Source of the DNA: Pleurocapsa sp. FMAR1
Lineage (GTDB): Bacteria > Cyanobacteriota > Cyanobacteriia > Cyanobacteriales > Xenococcaceae
Assembly (NCBI RefSeq): GCF_963665995.1
Contig: NZ_OY762512.1
Span: forward strand, 558,001-622,000
Direction of reading: 5' to 3'
Length of the DNA: 64,000 nucleotides
Part shown: positions 3 to 44,648 of the stretch, one piece after another
Numbering within the stretch: position 1 is the first letter of the stretch
Layout: the number at the start of each line of letters is the position of its first letter
Notes under the pieces: model-generated
The model's database searches: none
The model's input: only the letters and a program-made list of their open reading frames with translations
What the model was told of the DNA's origin: nothing
Position numbers and translations under genes: made by a program

Positions 3-2936
3 CCAGAAGTAGATGGTAGAATTATCACCCGCGCTATTTCTTTTAAATCGGTACAAACCTGGAACAAAAAGCTAGAAACTAACGTGGTTGTTTATCAGCC
101 AAAAAGCGATCGCACGGATTTTGTCGCCGACTCAGCAGCTAACTGGGTTAATCTCGCTAATACAATACCTAAAGACAGGAAAGTAGCTTTAATTCTTGCT
201 AACTATCCTAACAAAGACGGCAGAATTGCTAACGGCGTGGGTTTAGATACTCCCGCAAGCTGTATTAAAATTCTTGAAGCTTTACAACAATCAGGATATA
301 CAGTTACAAATATGCCCAAGACGGGAGAGGAATTAATTCAACGTCTGACTACAGGTATTACCAACGATCCTGAAAGTCGCGCCTCTCGCCCAACATATCA
401 AAGTTTATCGATAGAAGATTATCAAAAGTATTGGCAGACATTACCTGAAGCGGTACAGCAAAGTATAACAAATAGATGGGGCGTTTCTGTTGAACATCCT
501 CATGAAATTGCCAAGCAGGATGGGGAGATGGGGAGATGGGGAGATAGGGAGATACAAATTCCTGGAATACAGTTGGGGAATGTGTTTGTAGGGATACAAC
601 CATCGCGGGGATACGATCGCGATCCTAGTTTAAATTACCATGCACCAGATCTAGAACCTACTCACGAGTATTTAGCTTATTATCATTGGCTAAGAAGTTG
701 CTTTGGGGTACAGGCGATCGTTCATGTCGGCAAACATGGCAACCTAGAATGGCTACCAGGGAAAAGCTTGGCATTATCAGCCAGTTGCTATCCTGAAGTT
801 GCCTTACAAACTATTCCCAATATCTATCCCTTTATTGTCAACGATCCAGGAGAAGGTTCACAAGCAAAAAGGCGATCGCAAGCCGTAATTATCGATCATC
901 TTACCCCGCCCCTTACCCGTGCGGAGTTATACGGTGGGTTAGAAAAATTAGAGGCTTTAATCGATGAATACTATGAAGCACAAAGCTTAGATCCGACTCG
1001 CTTAAATATTATTAGCGATCGCATTACTAAACTAGTTCAGCAAGAAAACTTAGACCAAGATTTAGGTATCAAACCCAATGAGACTGAAACTTTAGCGCAA
1101 TTTCTCTCTGTCGCTGATGGCTATCTCTGTGAACTAAAAGAAGCACAGATACGAGATGGTTTACATATCTTTGGGCAATGTCCCCAAGGAGAACAACTAC
1201 GAGATCTAATTATTGCGATCGCTCGTTCACCTAGTTATAACCGTATCGGTTTAACTCAGGCATTGGCAAAAGATTTTGGTTTGGATTTTGATCCTTTATT
1301 AGGCGGAGATGTAGGGGCGTGTCTTGGTGCGCGTTCCCTTGCGCCTAACGGCGACGCGGGGTCGCACCGCTTTCGCGAAACGCCCCTACAGGGTATTGCA
1401 GGTTTGCCAGATAATTATCTAACAGAATTAAAACAAGCTAGAAATAAAGGTGATGCGATCGCCATCCTCGAAGAAATTGCCATCGAATTAGTAGATAACT
1501 TGCTCAACAATACACTTCTTACCTCTTACTGTACGGGCGATTCGCGAATCGCCCCTAACCTATTACCTATTACCTCATTACAGCTTCAGTGGATTAAAAA
1601 CACCCTACTGCCGAATCTAATCAAAAGCGATCGCGAAATAACTAACCTAATCAAAGCTTTAGATGGCAAATATATACCCAGTGGTGCATCGGGCGCACCC
1701 ACTAGAGGTAGACCAGAAGTATTACCCACAGGACGTAACTTTTATTCGGTAGATATTCGCGGGATTCCTACCGAAACCGCCTGGGAAGTAGGCAGTAAAG
1801 CAGCAGAGGTAGTAATTGAACGCTATACCCAAGAAAACGGCGAATATCCCCAATCCTTGGCAATTTCTATCTGGGGAACCTCAACCATGCGGACTGGAGG
1901 CGATGACATCGCTCAAGTAATGGCATTAATGGGAGTAAGACCAGTCTGGGACGGGATGTCTCGACGAGTTGTGGATTTTGAAGTGTTGCCAGCCTCTATC
2001 TTAAATCGTCCTCGTGTGGATGTAACGGTACGGGTGTCAGGCTTTTTTAGGGACTCTTTCCCTAACATAATCAACTTATTAAATAAAATAACAAAAACTG
2101 TTGCTAGTTTGCCAGAAACGCCAGAGATTAATCCTCTAGCTAATGCAGTTGAGACAGAACAACAGCTATTACAAGAGGCGGGAATAGATGCTGAGGCAGC
2201 CCAAAAACGAGCTAGCTATCGGGTATTTGGCTCAAAACCAGGGGCTTACGGTGCGGGAATCCAGGGTTTAATTGAGGCGCAAAATTGGCAGAGTGATGAA
2301 GATTTAGCTAGAGCTTATCTTAACTGGAGTTCTTATGCTTATGATGGCAGTGGTCAAGGCTATGCTGCACCAGAATCCTTTAAGCGTCGCTTAAAACAAC
2401 TTCAGATCGTGCTACACAATCAAGACAATAGAGAACACGACATACTTGACTCTGATGACTACTATCAATTCCAGGGAGGAATGACTGCTGCGGTACGTAG
2501 TCTGACAGGAAAAAACCCAGAGGTGTATTTTGGCGATAACTCCCAGCCGAGTAATCCAAGAGTCAGAAAGTTAACCGAAGAAATAGCCAGGGTGTATAGA
2601 TCGCGAGTAATAAATCCTAAATGGATTAAAGGTGTAATGCGTCACGGTTATAAAGGTGCGTTTGAAATGGCAGCGACGGTAGATTATCTTTTTGCCTACG
2701 ATGCTACGGCCAATTGCGTCGCCGACTATATGTATGAGGGGGTAGCTCAAGCATATATTTTTGACGAACAAGTACAGCAATTTATTCAAGCCAAAAACCC
2801 CTGGGCTTTGCGGGATATGTCTGAAAGACTCTTGGAGGCACATCAACGAGGATTATGGCAAGATGTCGATGCACAAATGATTGATGATTTAAAAGCGATC
2901 GCTAATCAATCTGAAGGAGTGATTGAGGAAATTTAA
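3..2936 (+). CDS. cobN: Cobaltochelatase subunit CobN, 3' part (5' end outside window)
   Basis: CobN is the large subunit of the ATP-dependent chelatase that inserts cobalt into the corrin ring in aerobic cobalamin synthesis, and is related to the Mg-chelatase H subunit. The frame stays open to the window edge: an in-frame PEVDGRIITRAISFK stretch precedes the first internal GTG at 84, so that GTG is not the start. About 977 codons are visible. Family proteins are about 1,250 residues, so several hundred residues lie upstream. Recognisable blocks are HVGKHGNLEWLPGK, the SIWGTSTMRTGGDDIAQVM region and the C-terminal HGYKGAFEMAATVDYLFAYDAT block. The frame carries three stretches that look like intergenic repeats (522-553, 1311-1389, 1535-1554) without breaking it. 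A short gap separates it from the TPR-sulfotransferase. The family call is firm; whether the insertions affect activity is unknown. Confidence 0.93.
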   Translation, partial: PEVDGRIITRAISFKSVQTWNKKLETNVVVYQPKSDRTDFVADSAANWVNLANTIPKDRKVALILANYPNKDGRIANGVGLDTPASCIKILEALQQSGYTVTNMPKTGEELIQRLTTGITNDPESRASRPTYQSLSIEDYQKYWQTLPEAVQQSITNRWGVSVEHPHEIAKQDGEMGRWGDREIQIPGIQLGNVFVGIQPSRGYDRDPSLNYHAPDLEPTHEYLAYYHWLRSCFGVQAIVHVGKHGNLEWLPGKSLALSASCYPEVALQTIPNIYPFIVNDPGEGSQAKRRSQAVIIDHLTPPLTRAELYGGLEKLEALIDEYYEAQSLDPTRLNIISDRITKLVQQENLDQDLGIKPNETETLAQFLSVADGYLCELKEAQIRDGLHIFGQCPQGEQLRDLIIAIARSPSYNRIGLTQALAKDFGLDFDPLLGGDVGACLGARSLAPNGDAGSHRFRETPLQGIAGLPDNYLTELKQARNKGDAIAILEEIAIELVDNLLNNTLLTSYCTGDSRIAPNLLPITSLQLQWIKNTLLPNLIKSDREITNLIKALDGKYIPSGASGAPTRGRPEVLPTGRNFYSVDIRGIPTETAWEVGSKAAEVVIERYTQENGEYPQSLAISIWGTSTMRTGGDDIAQVMALMGVRPVWDGMSRRVVDFEVLPASILNRPRVDVTVRVSGFFRDSFPNIINLLNKITKTVASLPETPEINPLANAVETEQQLLQEAGIDAEAAQKRASYRVFGSKPGAYGAGIQGLIEAQNWQSDEDLARAYLNWSSYAYDGSGQGYAAPESFKRRLKQLQIVLHNQDNREHDILDSDDYYQFQGGMTAAVRSLTGKNPEVYFGDNSQPSNPRVRKLTEEIARVYRSRVINPKWIKGVMRHGYKGAFEMAATVDYLFAYDATANCVADYMYEGVAQAYIFDEQVQQFIQAKNPWALRDMSERLLEAHQRGLWQDVDAQMIDDLKAIANQSEGVIEEI
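522..553. repeat. GGGGAGAT-type tandem repeat inside cobN
   Basis: Four near-identical copies of a GGGGAGAT-like octamer lie in tandem and in frame, coding for a GEMGRWGDRE segment unlike the rest of CobN. Such G-rich runs normally sit between genes in cyanobacteria, so this looks like an in-frame expansion or insertion. Confidence 0.7.
1311..1389 (-). repeat. 79-bp palindromic repeat element inserted in frame in cobN
   Basis: The element is bounded by a perfect 10-bp inverted repeat (GTAGGGGCGT at 1311-1320, ACGCCCCTAC at 1380-1389). Its GC-rich interior, read as the reverse complement, matches the repeat at 47311-47362 (about 25 of 29 bases over the best stretch) and the cluster at 32686-32766. 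It keeps the cobN frame and codes for an Arg/Gly/Ala-rich stretch. It resembles a MITE or small dispersed repeat. Confidence 0.75.
1535..1554. repeat. 20-bp perfect palindrome inside cobN
   Basis: The 20 bases GGGCGATTCG|CGAATCGCCC are a perfect palindrome, in frame, and are followed by CCTAACCTATTACCTATTACC, which itself looks intergenic. The encoded TGDSRIAPNLLPITS is probably another inserted segment. Confidence 0.7.
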
Positions 2937-3013
2937 TCGTCATCAATATGGCGTAAATCTTATCTTGAGTGCAAGATAGAGGTCTAAATAAGTTTACAAA
3001 CTAGCCAAGCTGT

Positions 3014-4501
3014 ATGAATTTAGATGTTGCAGAATATCTTAAGTCAGCCGAAGAATATATTGCTCAGGAAAAATGGCAGGAAGCTAAAATTAATTTTCAA
3101 CGGGCAATTGAAATAGATCCTCATCGTTGGGATATTTATTTTAATTTAGGCGTAATTTTTTTAAAACAGCAACAATACGAAGCAGCAGTCAATAAGTTCG
3201 AGCAAGCTATTAGAATTAAGCCTGATTATGATTGGTCTTATAATAATTTGGGTGAAGCATTTTTAAAATTAGGTCGTCCTAAAGATGCAGTTCAATCTTT
3301 TATTCAAGCTGTAACTATTAATCAAAATAATCCTCAGTTTTACTATAATTTAGGCGAAGCTTTAGTTCAAAAAAATGCAGTCGATCAGGCACTTGTCTGT
3401 TTTCGTCAGGCACTAGAATTAGATCCAAAAGATCATCAGCTTCAGTTTCAATTAGGCAAATCTTTAAAAAATCAAGGCTTAACTAAAGAAGCAGTAGAGT
3501 GTTTTTGCCGAGCAATTAAGCTAAATCCTAACTATACTTTTGCCTATATTTCTTTAAGATATACAAAATTAGAGCCAAAACAGCGCGAGCACCTAATTAA
3601 CTTTTATCAACAAATATTAATCGATCATCCTCAGCAACCAGACGCTTTGGCTAATCTGGCTGACTTATTAGCTGCTCAAGGAAATATAGTAGAGGCGATC
3701 GCTTTTTCTCGTCAAGCTATTCAAACTAAAACAATCAAAGAAAACCCGCAGTTTGCTAAATTTGATTGGCAAATTAAAAAAAAAGCTCCAGATTTCATAA
3801 TTATTGGCGCAGGAAAATCTGGCACAACTTCTTTATACAGATATTTAGGCGATCACCAGCAAATACTATTACCAAATAAAAAAGAGCTACGTTTTTTTGA
3901 TCGAGACTTTGACTATGGCTATGAGTGGTATTTAGCTCAATTTCCTGGGATTAGCGATCGCGCCGATTTATTAACAGGAGAAGCTTCCCCTAGCTATTTC
4001 TTTTTACCCCATGTAGCTCAAAGAATCAAAGATTTGGCATCAGAAACTAAATTAATTGTGGTGCTACGCAATCCAGTAGAACGTACTATTTCTGACTATT
4101 ATCACAACCAAAAAGCGGAGAACAAGAACTTAAACTTAGAACAATTAATCGACTCAGAAATTACTTGGCTTGAACAAAAAAGTGAACAAGAATTAAGCTA
4201 CGGAGGTGGCTTATTATCCCAAAGTCTTTACTACTATAAATTAAAACGCTGGCTAAATATATTTCCCAGAAATCAGTTTTTAATTTTAAAAAGCGAGGAT
4301 TTATTTACTAATCCGAGTCTGGTAATGAGAGAAGTTTTAGATTATTTGAGCTTACCTAATATGCAAAAAGATGACTATTCAAAACATAATACTGGCTTTT
4401 ATCCTCAAGTTGAATTTAATTTAAAAAGTAAATTAAAAAGCTATTTTAAATCTCATAATCAAAAATTAGCAGACTATTTAAATATGAATTTTGATTGGTA
4501 A
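3014..4501 (+). CDS. TPR-repeat sulfotransferase
   Basis: The N-terminal half (about residues 5-235) is a series of TPR units, for example WDIYFNLGVIFLKQQQYEAA and PQFYYNLGEALVQKNAVDQA. The C-terminal half (about 255-495) is a PAPS-dependent sulfotransferase. Its 5'-phosphosulfate loop is IIGAGKSGTTSLYRYL, and its 3'-phosphate site is VVLRNPVERTISDYYHN. The domain ends in the usual LADYLN...W tail. The enzyme should transfer sulfate from PAPS to a glycan or protein, with the TPR part selecting the acceptor or partner. No signal peptide or membrane segment is seen, so it is probably cytoplasmic or peripheral. Bacterial relatives often sit in polysaccharide loci, but here the neighbours (cobN upstream, convergent dihydroorotase-like gene) give no substrate clue. 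The domain call is strong; the acceptor is unknown. Confidence 0.9.
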   Translation: MNLDVAEYLKSAEEYIAQEKWQEAKINFQRAIEIDPHRWDIYFNLGVIFLKQQQYEAAVNKFEQAIRIKPDYDWSYNNLGEAFLKLGRPKDAVQSFIQAVTINQNNPQFYYNLGEALVQKNAVDQALVCFRQALELDPKDHQLQFQLGKSLKNQGLTKEAVECFCRAIKLNPNYTFAYISLRYTKLEPKQREHLINFYQQILIDHPQQPDALANLADLLAAQGNIVEAIAFSRQAIQTKTIKENPQFAKFDWQIKKKAPDFIIIGAGKSGTTSLYRYLGDHQQILLPNKKELRFFDRDFDYGYEWYLAQFPGISDRADLLTGEASPSYFFLPHVAQRIKDLASETKLIVVLRNPVERTISDYYHNQKAENKNLNLEQLIDSEITWLEQKSEQELSYGGGLLSQSLYYYKLKRWLNIFPRNQFLILKSEDLFTNPSLVMREVLDYLSLPNMQKDDYSKHNTGFYPQVEFNLKSKLKSYFKSHNQKLADYLNMNFDW

Positions 4502-4614
4502 TCTTTCCAATAAAAGATGTCGGTTTATCCTGTCTTTATATCAAAGATGTATGCTTTTTATTTATTCATCAACACTGCTTAAACCCAGGGCTATTTGATT
4601 CTCGCTCTTCTTCC

Positions 4615-4718
4615 AGAGAATAAATTCTCTGTCTAACAAACAAAGTCCGTTTAAACGGACTTAAGATTTGCGGTGCGACCCAGCTGCTGTTCCAGCAGCC
4701 AAGAAATAGATTTCTTGG
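4615..4718. repeat. Composite of four perfect hairpins between convergent genes
   Basis: Four hairpins follow one another: 4615-4630 (7-bp arms), 4643-4662 (a perfect 20-bp palindrome around GTTTAAAC), 4683-4699 (7-bp arms) and 4699-4718 (8-bp arms). Between the second and third lies GCGGTGCGACCC, which is also the start of the repeat family seen at 1311-1389 and 47311-47362. A 71-codon minus-strand reading frame crosses the cluster but is not a credible gene. It may help separate the convergent transcripts. Confidence 0.75.
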
Positions 4719-4808
4719 TACATTAGATTCAAAATGAAATAGCTTTGACTTAAGCCAATGACTCATTACTTTACGGACGGACATTCGCCCCTAGCTGATT
4801 ACTAATAG

Positions 4809-6080
4809 CTAGCTGTTCCAGGTTTTAATAACTTTTCCTATAATTTGTTGATTATAAAAAGGCGTATTAGCAGCAGAAGATTTGAGATTTTCTTGATTAG
4901 CTAACCAAGTTTTTTGCGAATCGAATAATATTAAATTAGCAGCATCGTCTAGCGCGATCGCTATAGGTTCTTGTTGTAGACATTGACGGGGACGACTACT
5001 CAAACCCTGCCATAGTTCTAAAGCAGATAGTTTTCCAGTTTCTACTAGTCCTTGCCATAAAAGAGGTAGAGCTAACTCCAAACCAATTACTCCTGGTGGT
5101 GCAAGAGCAAATGCTACGGTTTTTTCTTCGTAGGTATATGCCTGATGGTCAATGGCGATCGCATCAATAATTCCTTGTTTAACTCCAGTAATTAATGCAG
5201 CCTGGTCTTTTTTATCTCCCAAGGGTGGTTCAAGGCGCAAATTGGGGTCATAGCTACCCACTGCATCATCATTCCATAACAGATGCATCCAGGTCGTGCT
5301 GGCGGTTATCGTTACGCCTCTGGCTTTGGCATCGGCAATCAACTCCACTCCTCTTTTCGTAGAAACGCGCATAATATGAACGGGAGTCGGAATTTCTGCC
5401 ACTATTTCTAAGACTGCTGCTATAATTGCTGCCTCTGAAAAAGCAGGATTTCCCAACATACCGTAACAAATAGAGGTTATTCCTTCTCGAACTACTCCTT
5501 TTCCTGCTAGTTCGTTGCAGTTAAGAGCGATCGCCATCGGCTTTTGCCAAGGTTGAACATATTCCAAAACCTGTCTAAATAGATTCAAATCACTTAAATT
5601 ATAGCGATCGGCAAAGCCAATTACTCCTGCCTTTAATTCTCCCAGTTCACTCATCTGTTTGGTATCGGTAACATGGGAAACAGCACCCCAAAAACTTAGC
5701 TGAGATACAGGCTTGTTGCGATCGTCATTGGTTAAATAGCTACTTTTTTGCTTAACAGCAGCTAATATTTCAGCATTATCAATCCGAGGTAGAGTGTCAG
5801 GTAAAATTCCTACTTGCGTAAACCCCCCCGCAGCAGCAGACTGAGCCAAAGCTAATAAAGTTTCTCTGGCTTCATTTCCAGGTTCTCCACTATGGCTATA
5901 TAAATCTACTAATCCTGTTCCCAAGACCAAATTTTGTCCTGAAAGTATTTGTGCTTCGGTGGGATAGTCCGTCAGGCGATCGCCAATTTGCTTGATTTTA
6001 CCGTTTTCAATTAGCACATCCGACAAGCGATCGATTTCTTGAGTAGGGTCAATTACTCTTACCTGTTGCAGTAGTTCCAT
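4809..6080 (-). CDS. Dihydroorotase-like protein lacking most metal ligands
   Basis: This is a full-length amidohydrolase-fold protein (423 residues) of the dihydroorotase family. The order of motifs is kept, including EPG..EARETL, the PPLGDKKDQAAL block, IDAIAIDH and the APPGVIGLELALP end. Yet catalytic metal ligands are changed. The usual DxHxH reads D59-L-Y-S-H63, the following Arg is Gly, the HCED histidine is Asn (LNCNE), the HI.H.S histidine is Arg (HIMRVS), and the PHH motif is WMH. Proteobacterial genomes carry a comparable inactive paralogue, PyrC' (PyrX), that scaffolds aspartate transcarbamoylase. I infer a structural or regulatory partner, or a changed chemistry, rather than a classical dihydroorotase. 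It stands alone, back to back with purA across about 150 bp. Confidence 0.82.
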   Translation of the reverse strand: MELLQQVRVIDPTQEIDRLSDVLIENGKIKQIGDRLTDYPTEAQILSGQNLVLGTGLVDLYSHSGEPGNEARETLLALAQSAAAGGFTQVGILPDTLPRIDNAEILAAVKQKSSYLTNDDRNKPVSQLSFWGAVSHVTDTKQMSELGELKAGVIGFADRYNLSDLNLFRQVLEYVQPWQKPMAIALNCNELAGKGVVREGITSICYGMLGNPAFSEAAIIAAVLEIVAEIPTPVHIMRVSTKRGVELIADAKARGVTITASTTWMHLLWNDDAVGSYDPNLRLEPPLGDKKDQAALITGVKQGIIDAIAIDHQAYTYEEKTVAFALAPPGVIGLELALPLLWQGLVETGKLSALELWQGLSSRPRQCLQQEPIAIALDDAANLILFDSQKTWLANQENLKSSAANTPFYNQQIIGKVIKTWNS

Positions 6081-8476: not shown

Positions 8477-8851
8477 TCACTTCTTCTTTGCCTGATGTAA
8501 AATTAAGCGATTTCCTTCTGGATCATAAGCATAAATCTCCTGACCATGGGAACTATATATTATTTCTCCTGGTGGAGTGTAACCCATATCAGCTAGAAAA
8601 GCGATCGCCTGTTCTAAATTTTCTACCTCGATACATAAGCTCATACTGCTGCTAATATTATCGAACTCCAACTTTCGTTCCGTTTTGGGTTGAAAGATGC
8701 CCAAACGCAGTTTTTGTAATTGGAACTCTCCGTAAACCCCAGGAAGATAAACTGTAGGCTGTTTTTGTAACAGATGACTATAAAAGTCAATTAAAGCTTG
8801 AATATTATTAGTAGATATAGTGACAAAGACATCCAGATAATCAAAATTCAT
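8477..8851 (-). CDS. VOC (glyoxalase/bleomycin-resistance fold) protein
   Basis: A single VOC domain begins at MNFDYLDVFVTISTNNIQALIDFYSHLL and ends with the typical IYAYDPEGNRLILHQ. The middle SLCIEVENLEQAIAFLADMGY is the second beta-alpha-beta module. The ATG at 8851 is preferred: a longer reading frame to 8908 adds a hydrophobic, non-family N-terminus. Members bind a divalent metal and include glyoxalase I, dioxygenases and antibiotic-binding proteins; the ligand here cannot be read from sequence. It converges on rplY. Confidence 0.82.
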   Translation of the reverse strand: MNFDYLDVFVTISTNNIQALIDFYSHLLQKQPTVYLPGVYGEFQLQKLRLGIFQPKTERKLEFDNISSSMSLCIEVENLEQAIAFLADMGYTPPGEIIYSSHGQEIYAYDPEGNRLILHQAKKK

Positions 8852-41220: not shown

Positions 41221-41414
41221 AGTTGCAAGTACAGTTACCTGAGAAAACGCTGAGTTTTAAATGAGACTTTCCAATACATAGATTCAGTAAATTTATAGAT
41301 TTAATTCAGATAAGTTTCATTCACAGTCAGCATACTTGAGTAAGTTAAAAGGTCAAAAGCCTTTTAAGTTAAGCAATTTACCTATCGATCTCTCAAGATC
41401 AACCTACAATTTGG

Positions 41415-41813
41415 ATGACAACAATTATGAATATGAATCAGAAAATTATTGGCTTAGTCACTACCTTAACTTTAATTGGTAGTCTCGCCGCTTGCTCTAC
41501 TCCCAAAGCAGAGAGTCAGCAAACTACACCCAATGTAACTGCTGAAAGCACAACACAACCCGACACTATGCAGCAGGGTGAGACGATGAAAGATGATGAC
41601 GGTGCTATGCAGCAGGGTGAGACGATGAAAGATGATGACGGTGCTATGCAGCAGGGTGGCACGATGAAAGATGATGGCGATGCCATGCAACAGGGTGAGA
41701 CGATGAAAGATGATGGCGGTGCTATGCAACAGGGTGGCACGATGAAAGATGATGACGGTGCTATGCAGCAGGGTGGCACGATGAAAGATGATGGCGGTGC
41801 TATGAAAAAATAA
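41415..41813 (+). CDS. Methionine-rich repeat lipoprotein (MXKDX-like)
   Basis: A lipoprotein signal ends LIGSLAAC with the lipidated Cys at residue 27 (numbered from ATG 41415; ATG 41433 is an equally good start). After a Thr/Gln-rich linker come six copies of a 13-residue unit, MQQG(E/G)TMKDD(D/G)(G/D)A, then MKK. Each unit has two Met, one Lys and two or three Asp, and no Cys. Low-complexity proteins with MxKDx repeats are known as a small secreted family without assigned chemistry. The gene leads an operon of envelope redox proteins, so I infer that the surface Met residues are oxidised and then reduced, or that the chain binds copper. The repeat copies are almost identical in DNA. Confidence 0.88.
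   Translation: MTTIMNMNQKIIGLVTTLTLIGSLAACSTPKAESQQTTPNVTAESTTQPDTMQQGETMKDDDGAMQQGETMKDDDGAMQQGGTMKDDGDAMQQGETMKDDGGAMQQGGTMKDDDGAMQQGGTMKDDGGAMKK
41568..41801 (+). repeat. Six 39-bp coding tandem repeats
   Basis: Six units of exactly 39 bp fill 234 bp and are nearly identical, which points to recent duplication and likely copy-number variation between strains. Because the period is a multiple of three, long mirror frames also appear on the minus strand. Confidence 0.95.
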
Positions 41814-41952
41814 ACACCCACAAAACCCCAGTTGCTTCATCTCTTATCCGAACAACTTTCATTGATCGAGTTCTTACACGCTAAACCAAATTAGTTGGCA
41901 ATTGTGCAAGTAATCGATTTGTACTTCTTGTAATTTATTTGGTGAAACTATC

Positions 41953-42570
41953 ATGGACAAAGTTTCTCGTCAGCGTCGTCAAGTTTTATTTTATTTAGGT
42001 CTGGGTGTGGTTGGAGCAGGCGTAACGGCTGCTCTTGGAGTAGGCACTAAAGGCAATAATTCGACCGCAACGGCTTTACCTACTCCTGCTGCGACCAAAG
42101 CCGAAACTGCTTCTGCTGCCTTAGCTGCTGCTGGAAAACAACTCCCCGATTTTCAGGGGATTCAGCAATGGTTAAACTCAGATCCTCTGGCGATCGCCGA
42201 TCTCAAAGGCAATGTTGTCTTAATTCAGTTTTGGACGTTTGCCTGCATCAATTGTCAGCGCACGCTGCCTTATATTGTCAAATGGAACAGCAAGTATGCA
42301 GCACAGGGATTGAGAGTAGTTGGCATTCATACGCCAGAATTTGCCTTTGAGCGCGAGCCGAATAATATCAAACGCGCCCTAAAACAGCATCAAATTACCT
42401 ATCCTGTCCCAGTCGACAACGAATACAAAACGTGGAATGCATACAGCAATCAATATTGGCCTCATTTGTTTTTAGCAGATCGACACGGCTTTATGCGCTA
42501 CGATCATATTGGCGAAGGCGCTTATGATACGACTGAGCAGACCATTCAACAGCTATTGAAAGAAACCTAA
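41953..42570 (+). CDS. Exported DipZ/TlpA-like thioredoxin-fold protein
   Basis: An N-terminal export signal (RQRRQVLFYLGLGVVGAG; possibly Tat because of the RR pair) is followed by an Ala/Thr linker and a thioredoxin-fold domain. Its active site is FWTFACINCQRTLPYI with C98-I-N-C101, the motif of the thioredoxin domain of DipZ. The domain ends WPHLFLADRHGFMRYDHIGEGAYD, the cis-Pro-like region. It should pass electrons from the CcdA-like protein coded next to an envelope acceptor. It is the second gene of the Met-rich lipoprotein operon. Its DNA looks more GC-rich than neighbours outside the operon. Confidence 0.88.
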   Translation: MDKVSRQRRQVLFYLGLGVVGAGVTAALGVGTKGNNSTATALPTPAATKAETASAALAAAGKQLPDFQGIQQWLNSDPLAIADLKGNVVLIQFWTFACINCQRTLPYIVKWNSKYAAQGLRVVGIHTPEFAFEREPNNIKRALKQHQITYPVPVDNEYKTWNAYSNQYWPHLFLADRHGFMRYDHIGEGAYDTTEQTIQQLLKET

Positions 42571-42602
42571 CCTGACAATTTGCACTTGCGTTTCTTTTCT
42601 TC

Positions 42603-43295
42603 ATGAATACATTTACCCTTTCTTTTCCAATTGCGATCCTTGCTGGAATTTTGACCGTTTTGTCTCCTTGTGTATTGCCAATTCTGCCAGTATTAGTGGG
42701 TCGATCGCTCCAGTCTCATCGCTATGGTCCAGTTGCTTTGGTGGTTGGCTTAGTTGGAGGCTTTGCGGTTGCGGGGAGTTTATTAGGTATCAGTGCTAGC
42801 TGGTTCACTGGACTCGCTAATTTTCTCAGGTACGGCGCGATCGCAATTCTGCTGCTCTTAGGTATCCTGGCGTTATTTCCCAGCTTGAGTTATAAATTGT
42901 TCAGCTACTTGCCAATCCAGCAATGGACTAAAGAACGTCCTCGAATTGGACTGTGGGGAGAGTTTTGGTTAGGGACTCAATTGGGACTGCTGTGGACACC
43001 CTGCGCGGGACCCGTTTTAGGCGGAATTCTAGTGCTGGCAGCCGTCAATCATCAGGTGGTAAGTGCTTTTAGTTTACTGATGGCTTATGGGTTTGGAGCA
43101 GCGTTGCCGCTCATTGCGCTTTCTTATGGAGGACGTAAAATTAGTCGGCGACTGCTCAGTTTGCGTCGTCACAGTGTAGTCTTACAAAAAGCTGGAGGTG
43201 CGATCGTAATTGTGACGGCGATCGCAATTCTGTTGGGTTGGGATGTCCAAATTCAGCTTTGGCTAGCTCCCTATTTTCCGACATTTTCAATTTAG
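42603..43295 (+). CDS. CcdA/DsbD-type membrane thiol electron carrier
   Basis: A 230-residue protein with six predicted helices. The two conserved redox cysteines lie in helices 1 and 4: LSPCVLPILP (C23) and LLWTPCAGPVLGG (C134). CcdA-like proteins move electrons from cytoplasmic thioredoxin across the membrane to exported thioredoxin-like proteins. The partner is most likely the CINC protein coded 32 bp upstream; in mycobacterial DipZ the two are fused. This supports a dedicated reducing route to the envelope. Confidence 0.92.
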   Translation: MNTFTLSFPIAILAGILTVLSPCVLPILPVLVGRSLQSHRYGPVALVVGLVGGFAVAGSLLGISASWFTGLANFLRYGAIAILLLLGILALFPSLSYKLFSYLPIQQWTKERPRIGLWGEFWLGTQLGLLWTPCAGPVLGGILVLAAVNHQVVSAFSLLMAYGFGAALPLIALSYGGRKISRRLLSLRRHSVVLQKAGGAIVIVTAIAILLGWDVQIQLWLAPYFPTFSI

Positions 43296-43312
43296 AATAA
43301 GGAACTTTAATC

Positions 43313-43921
43313 ATGAATTCTGCCATACCCGCCAAACGTGGAAAATCTAAGCCGTCTCCATCTCAAACCCTCCTCTCAAAAATCTTTCACTGGACAAATT
43401 TGATTAGTCTGTTTGTAATGCTTTTTAGTGGATTGCAAATCTACAACGCCAATCCAGTGTTTGGCGGACGTGGAGGGTGGCATTTTCCCGATTTTTTAAC
43501 TCTAGGCGGATGGTTGGCAGGTGGACGGCATTGGCATTTTACGGCGATGTGGTTTTATGCCTTGAATCTGCTGTGGTATGGGTTATATGTGTTTATTTCG
43601 CGCCGTTGGGAGAAACGATTTGTCAGCGAAAGTGATGTTAAGGCTTTGCGGGTGAGCCAGAATCCTAAGCGCAAAAATTACGCACTCCATCGATTGGTTT
43701 ATACAGCCATTCTGCCGATTTTACTCTTGTCGATCGCGTCTGGTTTGGCAATGTATAAACCCGCTTCATTTCATTGGTTATCCAGCTTATTTGTCAATTG
43801 GCAGACGCTTCGTACCATTCATTTTCTTGCCGTTCCTATTGTGATCTTATTTACTCTGGTTCACTCATTGTTAGCCTTAAGAGTTGGTAGTGTTCGCCTC
43901 ATAAAATCTATGTTTATCTGA
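43313..43921 (+). CDS. Cytochrome b561-type membrane subunit
   Basis: Four hydrophobic helices carry histidines suited to haem binding: ILSKIFHWTNLISLF-like start (KIFHWTNLISLFVML), RHWHFTAMWFYALNLLWYG, YALHRLVYTAILPILL and TIHFLAVPIVILFTLVHSLLAL. The protein matches the b561/thiosulfate-reductase cytochrome b subunit fold, similar in role to MsrQ/YedZ although not the same subfamily by eye. It probably passes quinol-derived electrons to the molybdopterin protein coded 25 bp downstream. It lies 17 bp after the CcdA-like gene. Confidence 0.87.
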   Translation: MNSAIPAKRGKSKPSPSQTLLSKIFHWTNLISLFVMLFSGLQIYNANPVFGGRGGWHFPDFLTLGGWLAGGRHWHFTAMWFYALNLLWYGLYVFISRRWEKRFVSESDVKALRVSQNPKRKNYALHRLVYTAILPILLLSIASGLAMYKPASFHWLSSLFVNWQTLRTIHFLAVPIVILFTLVHSLLALRVGSVRLIKSMFI

Positions 43922-43946
43922 GGATAATTATTTATTATTTATAAAA

Positions 43947-44648
43947 ATGTCTAAATTTATTTCTCGTCGTCAACTGTTGCAGTGGTCTGGATTATCTGGT
44001 GCCGCTTTACTGCTTAATAGCTGCGGTTCAAGTTTAGGATCGAGTGAAGTCGGGCAAGCTTTTGAGCCACTCAATCAAGCATCACAAGCCTTGTTACTTG
44101 CCCACAAAGCCGTTCCTGAATTTCCAGTCAGTGCGATCGAGCCTGATAAACTTTTAATCAACACCTTCGATCAAACGCCACAAATCGATCCTGCACAATA
44201 TCGCCTACAGATTGAAGGTGAAGTTAATCAGCCGATGCAGTTAAGTTTGACAGATCTTCAGGCACTACCGCTAACATCAATGGTGATTCAGCACGTGTGT
44301 GTCGAAGGCTGGGCAGCGATCGTCCAATGGGGCGGAGTGCGACTATCCGAATTGCTTCGATTAGCCCAACCTAAATCAAATGCCCGTTATGTTTACTTCA
44401 AATCTGCCGATGGTTACTACGAAAGCTGGGATTTAGCTTCGGCAACACATCCTCAAACGCTGATGGCATATCAGAAAAATGGACAGCCTTTGTCGGTTGA
44501 TAACGGTGCGCCTCTGCGTCTGGCTTCCCCAATTAAATTGGGCTACAAACAAAGTAAATGGGTAACTCAAATTATGCTGACAAATCAGTTGATGCCGACT
44601 AAAGGATATTGGGAAGATCTAGGATACGAGTGGTTTGGAGGATTGTAA
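43947..44648 (+). CDS. Tat-exported molybdopterin oxidoreductase (sulfite-oxidase/MsrP fold)
   Basis: A Tat signal with SRRQLLQWSG (R7-R8) leads to LLLNSCG, a possible lipidation site at C26. The Oxidored_molyb domain follows (about 70-233). The molybdenum-binding Cys is C118 in VIQHVCVEGWAAIVQWGG, and LRLASPIKLGYKQSKWV is the usual cofactor-binding segment. E. coli MsrP (YedY), of this fold, reduces methionine sulfoxide in periplasmic proteins using its b-type partner MsrQ. I infer a similar reductase role here, with the Met-rich lipoprotein of the same operon as a candidate substrate. Sulfite or nitrate chemistry is an alternative. Confidence 0.88.
   Translation: MSKFISRRQLLQWSGLSGAALLLNSCGSSLGSSEVGQAFEPLNQASQALLLAHKAVPEFPVSAIEPDKLLINTFDQTPQIDPAQYRLQIEGEVNQPMQLSLTDLQALPLTSMVIQHVCVEGWAAIVQWGGVRLSELLRLAQPKSNARYVYFKSADGYYESWDLASATHPQTLMAYQKNGQPLSVDNGAPLRLASPIKLGYKQSKWVTQIMLTNQLMPTKGYWEDLGYEWFGGL

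Follow-up and report, generated by a model that had tools for sequence, protein, structure and literature searches.

In the window, the 64,000-nucleotide stretch of Pleurocapsa sp. FMAR1 contig NZ_OY762512.1 analyzed here, positions 41415 to 44648 of the plus strand carry five codirectional genes that we read, with a probability of roughly 0.68, as an envelope methionine (Met)-redox module: a rechargeable Met sponge with an MsrP-like/cytochrome b561-type route for its repair and, in parallel, a split DipZ arm. The genes encode, in order, a Met-repeat lipoprotein, a TlpA/DipZ-like thioredoxin, CcdA, a b561-type cytochrome, and an MsrP-like molybdoprotein. By analogy, the module would best be read as the hypochlorite-scavenging MrpX/MsrP system in a variant form, extended by a DipZ-type thiol arm. 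As judged from comparative sequence analysis, it is conserved and separately regulated in cyanobacteria, and a chance origin of the locus is excluded because the locus is conserved across relatives.

An initial annotation of the window had placed five open reading frames (ORFs) on this strand, and their coordinates and their gaps of 139, 32, 17, and 25 bp all hold. So do its six 13-residue Met/Lys/Asp repeats, its DipZ/TlpA-like CINC thioredoxin, and its two-cysteine CcdA-like carrier. The b-type cytochrome has the four helices ascribed to it but belongs to Ni_hydr_CYTB and not to Ferric_reduct, which sets aside an MsrQ-type partner; the molybdopterin protein is a candidate for twin-arginine translocation (Tat), as proposed, and carries a lipobox Cys that had been missed. 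A scan found no plus-strand terminator-like site in the 139-bp gap after the lipoprotein gene, the overall site counts of that scan being near those of shuffled sequences.

Comparison of related loci ties the lipoprotein to the other four genes. The locus set was built around matches to CcdA or the molybdoprotein and, counting the window, comprised 82 loci (77 after 5 duplicates were dropped). It drew on the 21 closest of at least 80 loci from a CcdA scan of named genomes and on 52 of 62 molybdoprotein matches, the remainder being G090, G098, G107, G114, G121, G123, G235, G274, G369, and G426; loci with broken or fused thiol genes (L066, L067, and L068) were left out of the count. The lipoprotein adjoins 26 of the 28 unique loci having all four partner genes, including L054, which was counted by hand because its contig breaks off within the repeats, a missing end being on another contig. 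Molybdoprotein loci without the thiol pair, by comparison, have the lipoprotein in 2 of 39 cases (L179 and L213) and lack it in 37. The resulting association between lipoprotein and thiol pair is strong by a Fisher test that ignores ancestry (P = 4.8e-14). Seven further loci have no molybdoprotein in the stretch examined; five are lipoprotein free (L052, L058, L059, L065, and L087), and two, L061 and L079, have the lipoprotein at contig ends. The proposed link of the lipoprotein to its four partner genes is thus supported. The regular absence of the lipoprotein from homologous loci, which the initial annotation had named as the sign to the contrary, is true of loci with the molybdenum (Mo)/cytochrome pair alone but not of the full module, where it affects 2 of 28.

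The same association appears at the genome level. A profile of 25 lipoproteins (alignment A5), built from several of the very lipoproteins later matched, was searched with at most 12 candidates scored per genome; it matched 15 of 386 genomes at the adopted limit (E < 1e-10) and 36 of 386 at E values up to 1e-3. Strong matches occurred in 13 of 17 genomes with this CcdA versus 2 of 369 others (G085 and G212; P = 4e-19, again ignoring ancestry), and in 14 of 57 genomes with a molybdoprotein match versus 1 of 329 without. That single exception, G377, has a module contig that stops after tlpA. Two genomes, G341 and G212, have the lipoprotein gene at a site apart from the partner genes. Plasmid pA of Kovacikia minuta, found independently, carries genes for the lipoprotein, TlpA (in two frames), CcdA, MsrA, the cytochrome, and the molybdoprotein in order and, as far as gene content goes, confirms the module out of sample.

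The lipoprotein shares two traits with MrpX/MXKDX sponges, namely, exported low-complexity Met/Lys/Asp repeats, which are recognizable in its sequence, and linkage to an MsrP-type gene. Its ORF has no Pfam family, and its NCBIfam matches are weak and unrelated. In the window, the repeat is a 39-bp tandem array (6.1 copies, 92% match) whose six units vary only at E/G, D/G, and two synonymous sites, with both Met positions invariant; the window unit reads MKDDD, and the strict M-x-K-D-x string is found in relatives (MSKDK). Across the 25 lipoproteins, Met accounts for 236 of 2,091 mature residues, is directly preceded by Ala in 219 of the 236 cases, and occupies columns that belong to the small conserved portion of a repeat that otherwise changes quickly. 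Work on Rhodobacter sphaeroides MsrP distinguished well-reduced sites, of the GAGM(O)QAEED type, from poorly reduced ones, of the PGYM(O)EEW type (PMC7402097; this and the other papers cited here are drawn on in part). The window's GAMQQGE resembles the former, a likeness that is suggestive only.

The spacing of the Met residues bears on a different explanation, metal handling, in which the lipoprotein would buffer Cu(I), TlpA and CcdA would assemble or protect a metalloprotein, and the Mo pair would be incidental. In its favor, the assembly of metalloenzymes involves TlpA-fold proteins and CcdA in other systems. However, Met-to-Met gaps in the 25 lipoproteins range from 5 to 18, and 0 of 211 are 3 or less, versus a mean of 66.5 and a minimum of 52 in 500 shuffles; the gaps are partly products of tandem duplication and hence nonindependent, but units of differing length still keep the spacing. 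Since gaps never fall below 5, Cu(I) Met motifs are disfavored, and the pattern fits Met residues that are singly accessible and oxidizable. The MxM or MxxM clusters of Cu(I) Met-motif proteins are absent from the 25 mature parts, and possible ligands there amount to one His and zero Cys, with zero aromatic residues. Moreover, the Mo pair lies within the module, and some modules include Msr genes. We consider metal handling unlikely.

The molybdoprotein matches Oxidored_molyb (4e-38) and, just below the cut-off, a TAT-signal model (Pfam/NCBIfam). Its twin Arg, lipobox Cys, and C-V-E-(A/G)-W motif are invariant in all 15 rows of alignment A2, one of which is a second MsrP-like protein of the window genome (L003, at 1.58 Mb), and because of this invariance, the protein is probably a Tat lipoprotein. 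In L213, the molybdoprotein, which is more distant and outside A2, is without the lipobox Cys. A PDB search with the molybdoprotein alone placed MsrP/YedY first (1xdq, 1.7e-20) and sulfite dehydrogenase next (8e-9), and the MsrP equivalog NF003767 is its best NCBIfam family, at 104.1 bits. Its predicted structure was too poor for use (predicted local distance difference test [pLDDT] score of 55).

The same superfamily would also accommodate sulfite or thiosulfate oxidation, with the molybdoprotein as a sulfite dehydrogenase feeding the cytochrome and with CcdA and TlpA acting like SoxV and SoxW; SoxC and SorA models do match, at 66 and 62 bits. Those scores lie below the respective equivalog cut-offs of 420 and 600 bits, both libraries favor MsrP as the match, and the CVE(A/G)W motif of MsrP is kept. 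Sulfite oxidation would, furthermore, leave the Met-string lipoprotein unexplained, and we regard it as quite improbable.

The cytochrome belongs to the Ni_hydr_CYTB/b561 family (PF01292, 8e-17), has five invariant His residues across 16 rows, and is modeled with four long helices (pLDDT of 73); no sequence relative was found in the PDB at an E value of 0.01. MsrQ was considered as the partner of the molybdoprotein and rejected, given that the actual partner is of PF01292 and the MsrQ family is Ferric_reduct (PF01794), for which the window genome has no match at an E value of 0.001. Because MsrQ is absent and the molybdoprotein does not reach the 207-bit cut-off of NF003767, the module is, by these family matches, not classed as MsrPQ.

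The thiol arm comprises the TlpA-like protein, which matches AhpC-TSA/Redoxin (1e-12; TlpA/ResA-like, by Pfam/NCBIfam) and keeps its twin-Arg N terminus in 16 of 16 rows, and CcdA, which matches DsbD_TM (2e-12). The best solved relative of this TlpA family is DipZ, followed by the thioredoxin-like part of plant SOQ1, and in other phyla, single DipZ-like proteins unite CcdA with TlpA. With a two-Cys CcdA and a CxxC-bearing TlpA nearest to DipZ, the pair has the makeup of a DipZ or CcdA-TlpA relay and is, by homology, a split DipZ.

How the two arms relate can be approached through their conserved Cys residues, which comprise two in CcdA, the CxxC of TlpA, only the lipobox Cys and the presumed Mo ligand in the molybdoprotein, and none in the cytochrome. 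Passage of thiol electrons to the cytochrome or molybdoprotein via disulfide exchange was considered and found unlikely, as neither has a free conserved Cys for TlpA, and the thiol and Mo arms look parallel because of this. The lack of such a connecting Cys would also suit an explanation by separate functions, in which the thiol pair repairs envelope Cys residues, the Mo pair performs ordinary methionine sulfoxide (MetO) repair, and the lipoprotein is structural or adhesive and merely coregulated; so would the many Mo loci without the lipoprotein. Against it, the Met columns are conserved where the rest of the repeat changes fast, and the lipoprotein tracks the full module. Separate functions thus seem improbable to us.

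Msr genes provide a possible link between the thiol arm and MetO. An MsrB with a hydrophobic N terminus adjoins the module in L060 and L081 (by blast with Msr proteins), and an N-terminally anchored MsrA lies between CcdA and the cytochrome in L074, L079, and L291, export being judged by eye in each case. Among the 59 more distant loci listed (L090 to L148), MsrA and/or MsrB is near the CcdA/DipZ gene in 14 (L092, L099, L105, L113, L114, L124, L127, L130, L136, L137, L138, L142, L145, and L146), with an evident signal on some but not all of the Msr proteins. A convincing Met-rich secreted protein is nearby in one of the 59 loci, L124. There, in a Nitrospirae metagenome-assembled genome (MAG), positions 282 to 5057 contain consecutive genes for a regulator, a kinase, DipZ, a Tat-like MsrB, and a secreted peptide rich in Met, which may represent a sponge with the thiol arm alone, without Mo.

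Table 1. Features of the Met-redox locus and its upstream region (window coordinates)
Feature	Position	Strand	Remarks
11-bp direct-repeat box CTCAGCGTTTTCTCAG	41239..41254	-	Reverse arm of divergent pair; second overlapping box at 41250-41265
11-bp direct-repeat box TTCAGATAAGTTTCAT	41305..41320	+	Forward arm, 51 bp from reverse arm
Met-repeat lipoprotein, 132 amino acids	41415..41813	+	Lipobox Cys27, no further Cys; mature part without His or aromatics
Six 13-residue units, MQQG(E/G)TMKDD(D/G)(G/D)A	41568..41801	+	Met spacing 6,7,6,7...
TlpA/DipZ-like thioredoxin-fold protein, 205 amino acids	41953..42570	+	Twin-Arg N terminus; CINC at 42244-42255
CcdA-like transmembrane thiol carrier, 230 amino acids	42603..43295	+	Conserved Cys 23, 134
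b561/Ni-hydrogenase-type cytochrome b, 202 amino acids	43313..43921	+	Four long predicted helices; His 26, 75, 126, 170, 184 invariant; no Cys
MsrP-like molybdopterin oxidoreductase, 233 amino acids	43947..44648	+	Tat signal and lipobox Cys26; presumed Mo-ligand Cys118 in CVEGW

The cassette is associated with regulators of two distinct kinds. Upstream of the window's lipoprotein gene lies a divergent pair of YTCA(G/T)-N6-YTCA(G/T) boxes, at 41254 (minus) and 41305 (plus), a pattern first noticed in the window, L069, L070, and L071. We infer that these are OmpR/PhoB-type sites because of their 11-bp period. The pair with its 51-bp spacing occurs 13 times in 1.18 Mb, and 12 of these occurrences, the window's included, precede a lipoprotein gene by about 1 kb or less; the thirteenth (L208, 3131 to 3182) is several kilobases from the genes of a molybdoprotein/cytochrome-only locus without the lipoprotein. 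The Kovacikia boxes are spaced differently. Next to the module are a kinase and a regulator in L055, L070, L072, L078, and L179 and a kinase in L069 and L071; in L055, L078, and L179, a box lies ahead of the kinase gene. In the latter three loci, the interval from the box pair to the lipoprotein gene also encodes a small protein that is apparently exported (L055, 11456 to 11878; L078, 5001 to 5423; L179, 5338 to 5766), of which the L055 copy has no Pfam match.

In other relatives, genes for an extracytoplasmic function (ECF) sigma factor and an anti-sigma factor (that of L049 matches NF052375) adjoin the module, and an element, ATCC(A/G)A-N14..17-CGTA, precedes the sigma, lipoprotein, tlpA, and cytochrome units. 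The element was derived from L049, L050, L060, L061, and L081, leaving five independent matches (L051, L063, L084, L085, and L086). Its total of 30 matches in 2.35 Mb, both strands included, is close to that in mononucleotide shuffles (9 to 28), and what stands out is placement: 21 of the 30 are no more than 350 bp from the start of a module gene, five of them in loci outside the derivation set. In L064, the sigma gene is present without the strict element. Among the 29 loci with a detector-called lipoprotein, 10 have the ECF element, 12 have the box pair, and 7 have neither. The window has neither an ECF sigma gene beside the module nor an ECF element upstream. Two candidate regulators elsewhere in its genome were rejected: the closest homologue of the L049 sigma factor, at 47% identity, is encoded at a distance of about 0.3 Mb, with the element absent upstream of the module, and the response regulator nearest to that of L070 (75%, at 4.96 Mb) has no kinase gene or box in its 1.5-kb flanks.

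Several individual loci merit description. In L053 (G003), ccdA spans two reading frames and no lipoprotein gene lies close by, through either MAG error or real decay. At positions 8642 to 11602 of L066, tlpA and ccdA look degraded, the cytochrome and molybdoprotein genes read through, and no lipoprotein was found, an apparent joint loss of thiol arm and sponge. In L067 and L068, a protein matching both CcdA and TlpA adjoins the cytochrome-molybdoprotein pair, and no convincing Met lipoprotein was found. DM13-type (electron transfer) genes are in or near the module in L062 (8729 to 9226), L067 (4906 to 5496; both by Pfam), and L083 (7789 to 8409; by resemblance), and the L067 protein has a Met-rich N terminus. 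L069, recorded as Tatlockia sp. MGR_bin123, carries a cyanobacterial module with a CcdA 86% identical to the query and is probably misbinned. Flanking the window's module are an mfd-like gene on the opposite strand, named by eye, and a gene for a TPR protein 316 bp downstream, which do not appear to belong to it.

Some observations weigh against a rechargeable sponge. L053, from the window's genus, and L077 are complete four-partner loci with no lipoprotein nearby, and the module is patchy, this CcdA being present in 1 of 12 other genomes of that genus. Most Mo/cytochrome loci are without the sponge, so the pair has another use as well. A tree-aware test on the molybdoprotein tree offered three independent contrasts on the starred branches, of which, on average, 2.5 had the lipoprotein changing in the same direction and 0 in the opposite one; with so few contrasts, P was 0.25. 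The shortfall of the molybdoprotein against the MsrP cut-off also counts here. In the window genome, both MsrA proteins and the sole MsrB lack a signal peptide as judged by eye, which leaves the acceptor of the thiol arm there without a candidate Msr. Regeneration by a thiol route, as the initial annotation envisaged, therefore agrees with the split DipZ and the Msr genes near relatives' CcdA/DipZ genes but not with the terminal enzymes of the window genome. Finally, the box-associated kinases of L055 and L071 best match the heavy-metal sensor model TIGR01386, at 229 and 238 bits (cut-off, 292.6), as metal handling would have it; that of L070 does not. However, msrPQ of E. coli is likewise induced by a two-component system, HprSR, whose stimuli include reactive chlorine (PMC12503329).

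We propose that the conserved clustering points to an antioxidant shield of the cell envelope that can be recharged, for which the oxidant, the enzyme activity, and the signal are those that we infer as follows. The Met string would be the first to be oxidized by envelope oxidants, hypochlorous acid (HOCl)-like or other. With (plasto)quinol as its electron source via the cytochrome, the molybdoenzyme would reduce the sulfoxides and so recharge the sponge, while CcdA and TlpA would carry thioredoxin electrons over the membrane in parallel. In some relatives, an exported MsrA or MsrB could draw its electrons from the thiol arm; the target of that arm in the window genome would perhaps be oxidized Cys residues of envelope proteins. 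A dedicated regulator would switch the module on, acting through two-component-type boxes in the window and many relatives and through an ECF sigma factor in others. A more tentative and rather doubtful extension is a dual-wired Met "battery," in which one Met-string lipoprotein is recharged by both a plastoquinol/b561/MsrP-like route and an NADPH/thioredoxin/split DipZ route. If true, oxidants in the envelope or lumen of cyanobacteria could be scavenged directly at the expense of photosynthetic electrons. The module also poses the question of whether Mo- and thiol-dependent MetO repair are parallel feeds to one sacrificial protein.

No description of a sponge combined with an Mo pair and a thiol pair was found in the literature searched, which included the available parts of PMC9751292 and PMC8945050 and covered few subscription journals. 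Hypochlorite-scavenging Met sponges are known, in the sources available, from two proteobacteria with MsrPQ-type partners, and the module would extend the idea to oxygen-evolving bacteria. It differs from them in a cytochrome of another kind replacing MsrQ and in a thiol arm, in some relatives with its own apparently exported MsrA or MsrB.

The E. coli msrPQ operon has, to our knowledge, MsrQ rather than a b561-type cytochrome and no sponge or CcdA/TlpA. Its Mo-dependent envelope MetO repair and two-component control (PMC12503329) resemble those proposed for the module. The analogy with Azospira suillum drawn in the initial annotation fits, and it fits Brucella too. A. suillum MrpX acts with YedY1/YedZ under SigF/NrsF, so that a Met-rich sponge, an MsrP-type reductase, and, as in some relatives of the window's module, ECF sigma control are shared; by contrast, the module's sponge is a lipoprotein, its cytochrome is of the b561 type and not YedZ/MsrQ, and CcdA/TlpA is added (PMC5748585). 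In Brucella, the HOCl-induced BcrX-BcrQ-BcrP system under the ECF pair BcrS-AbcS likewise combines an MXKDX Met-rich protein and an MsrP-like enzyme with an ECF sigma gene beside the Met-rich gene, but it employs an MsrQ homologue, and the word "thioredoxin" is absent from the main text of that report as available (PMC8315932).

The thiol arm has other precedents. DipZ (PDB 5cyy and 2hyx) has a CcdA domain and a TlpA-like domain but is one fused protein, where the module has two genes. In Streptococcus pneumoniae, CcdA and the thioredoxin-fold lipoprotein Etrx feed exported MetO reduction by SpMsrAB2, a pairing of CcdA with a TlpA/thioredoxin-fold partner like that in the module; the model, in the portion of the report available (PMC3914529), is without an Mo route or a sponge, and the window genome shows no exported MsrA or MsrB. 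By analogy, the module would work like a merger of the A. suillum MrpX and pneumococcal CcdA-Etrx-MsrAB2 systems.

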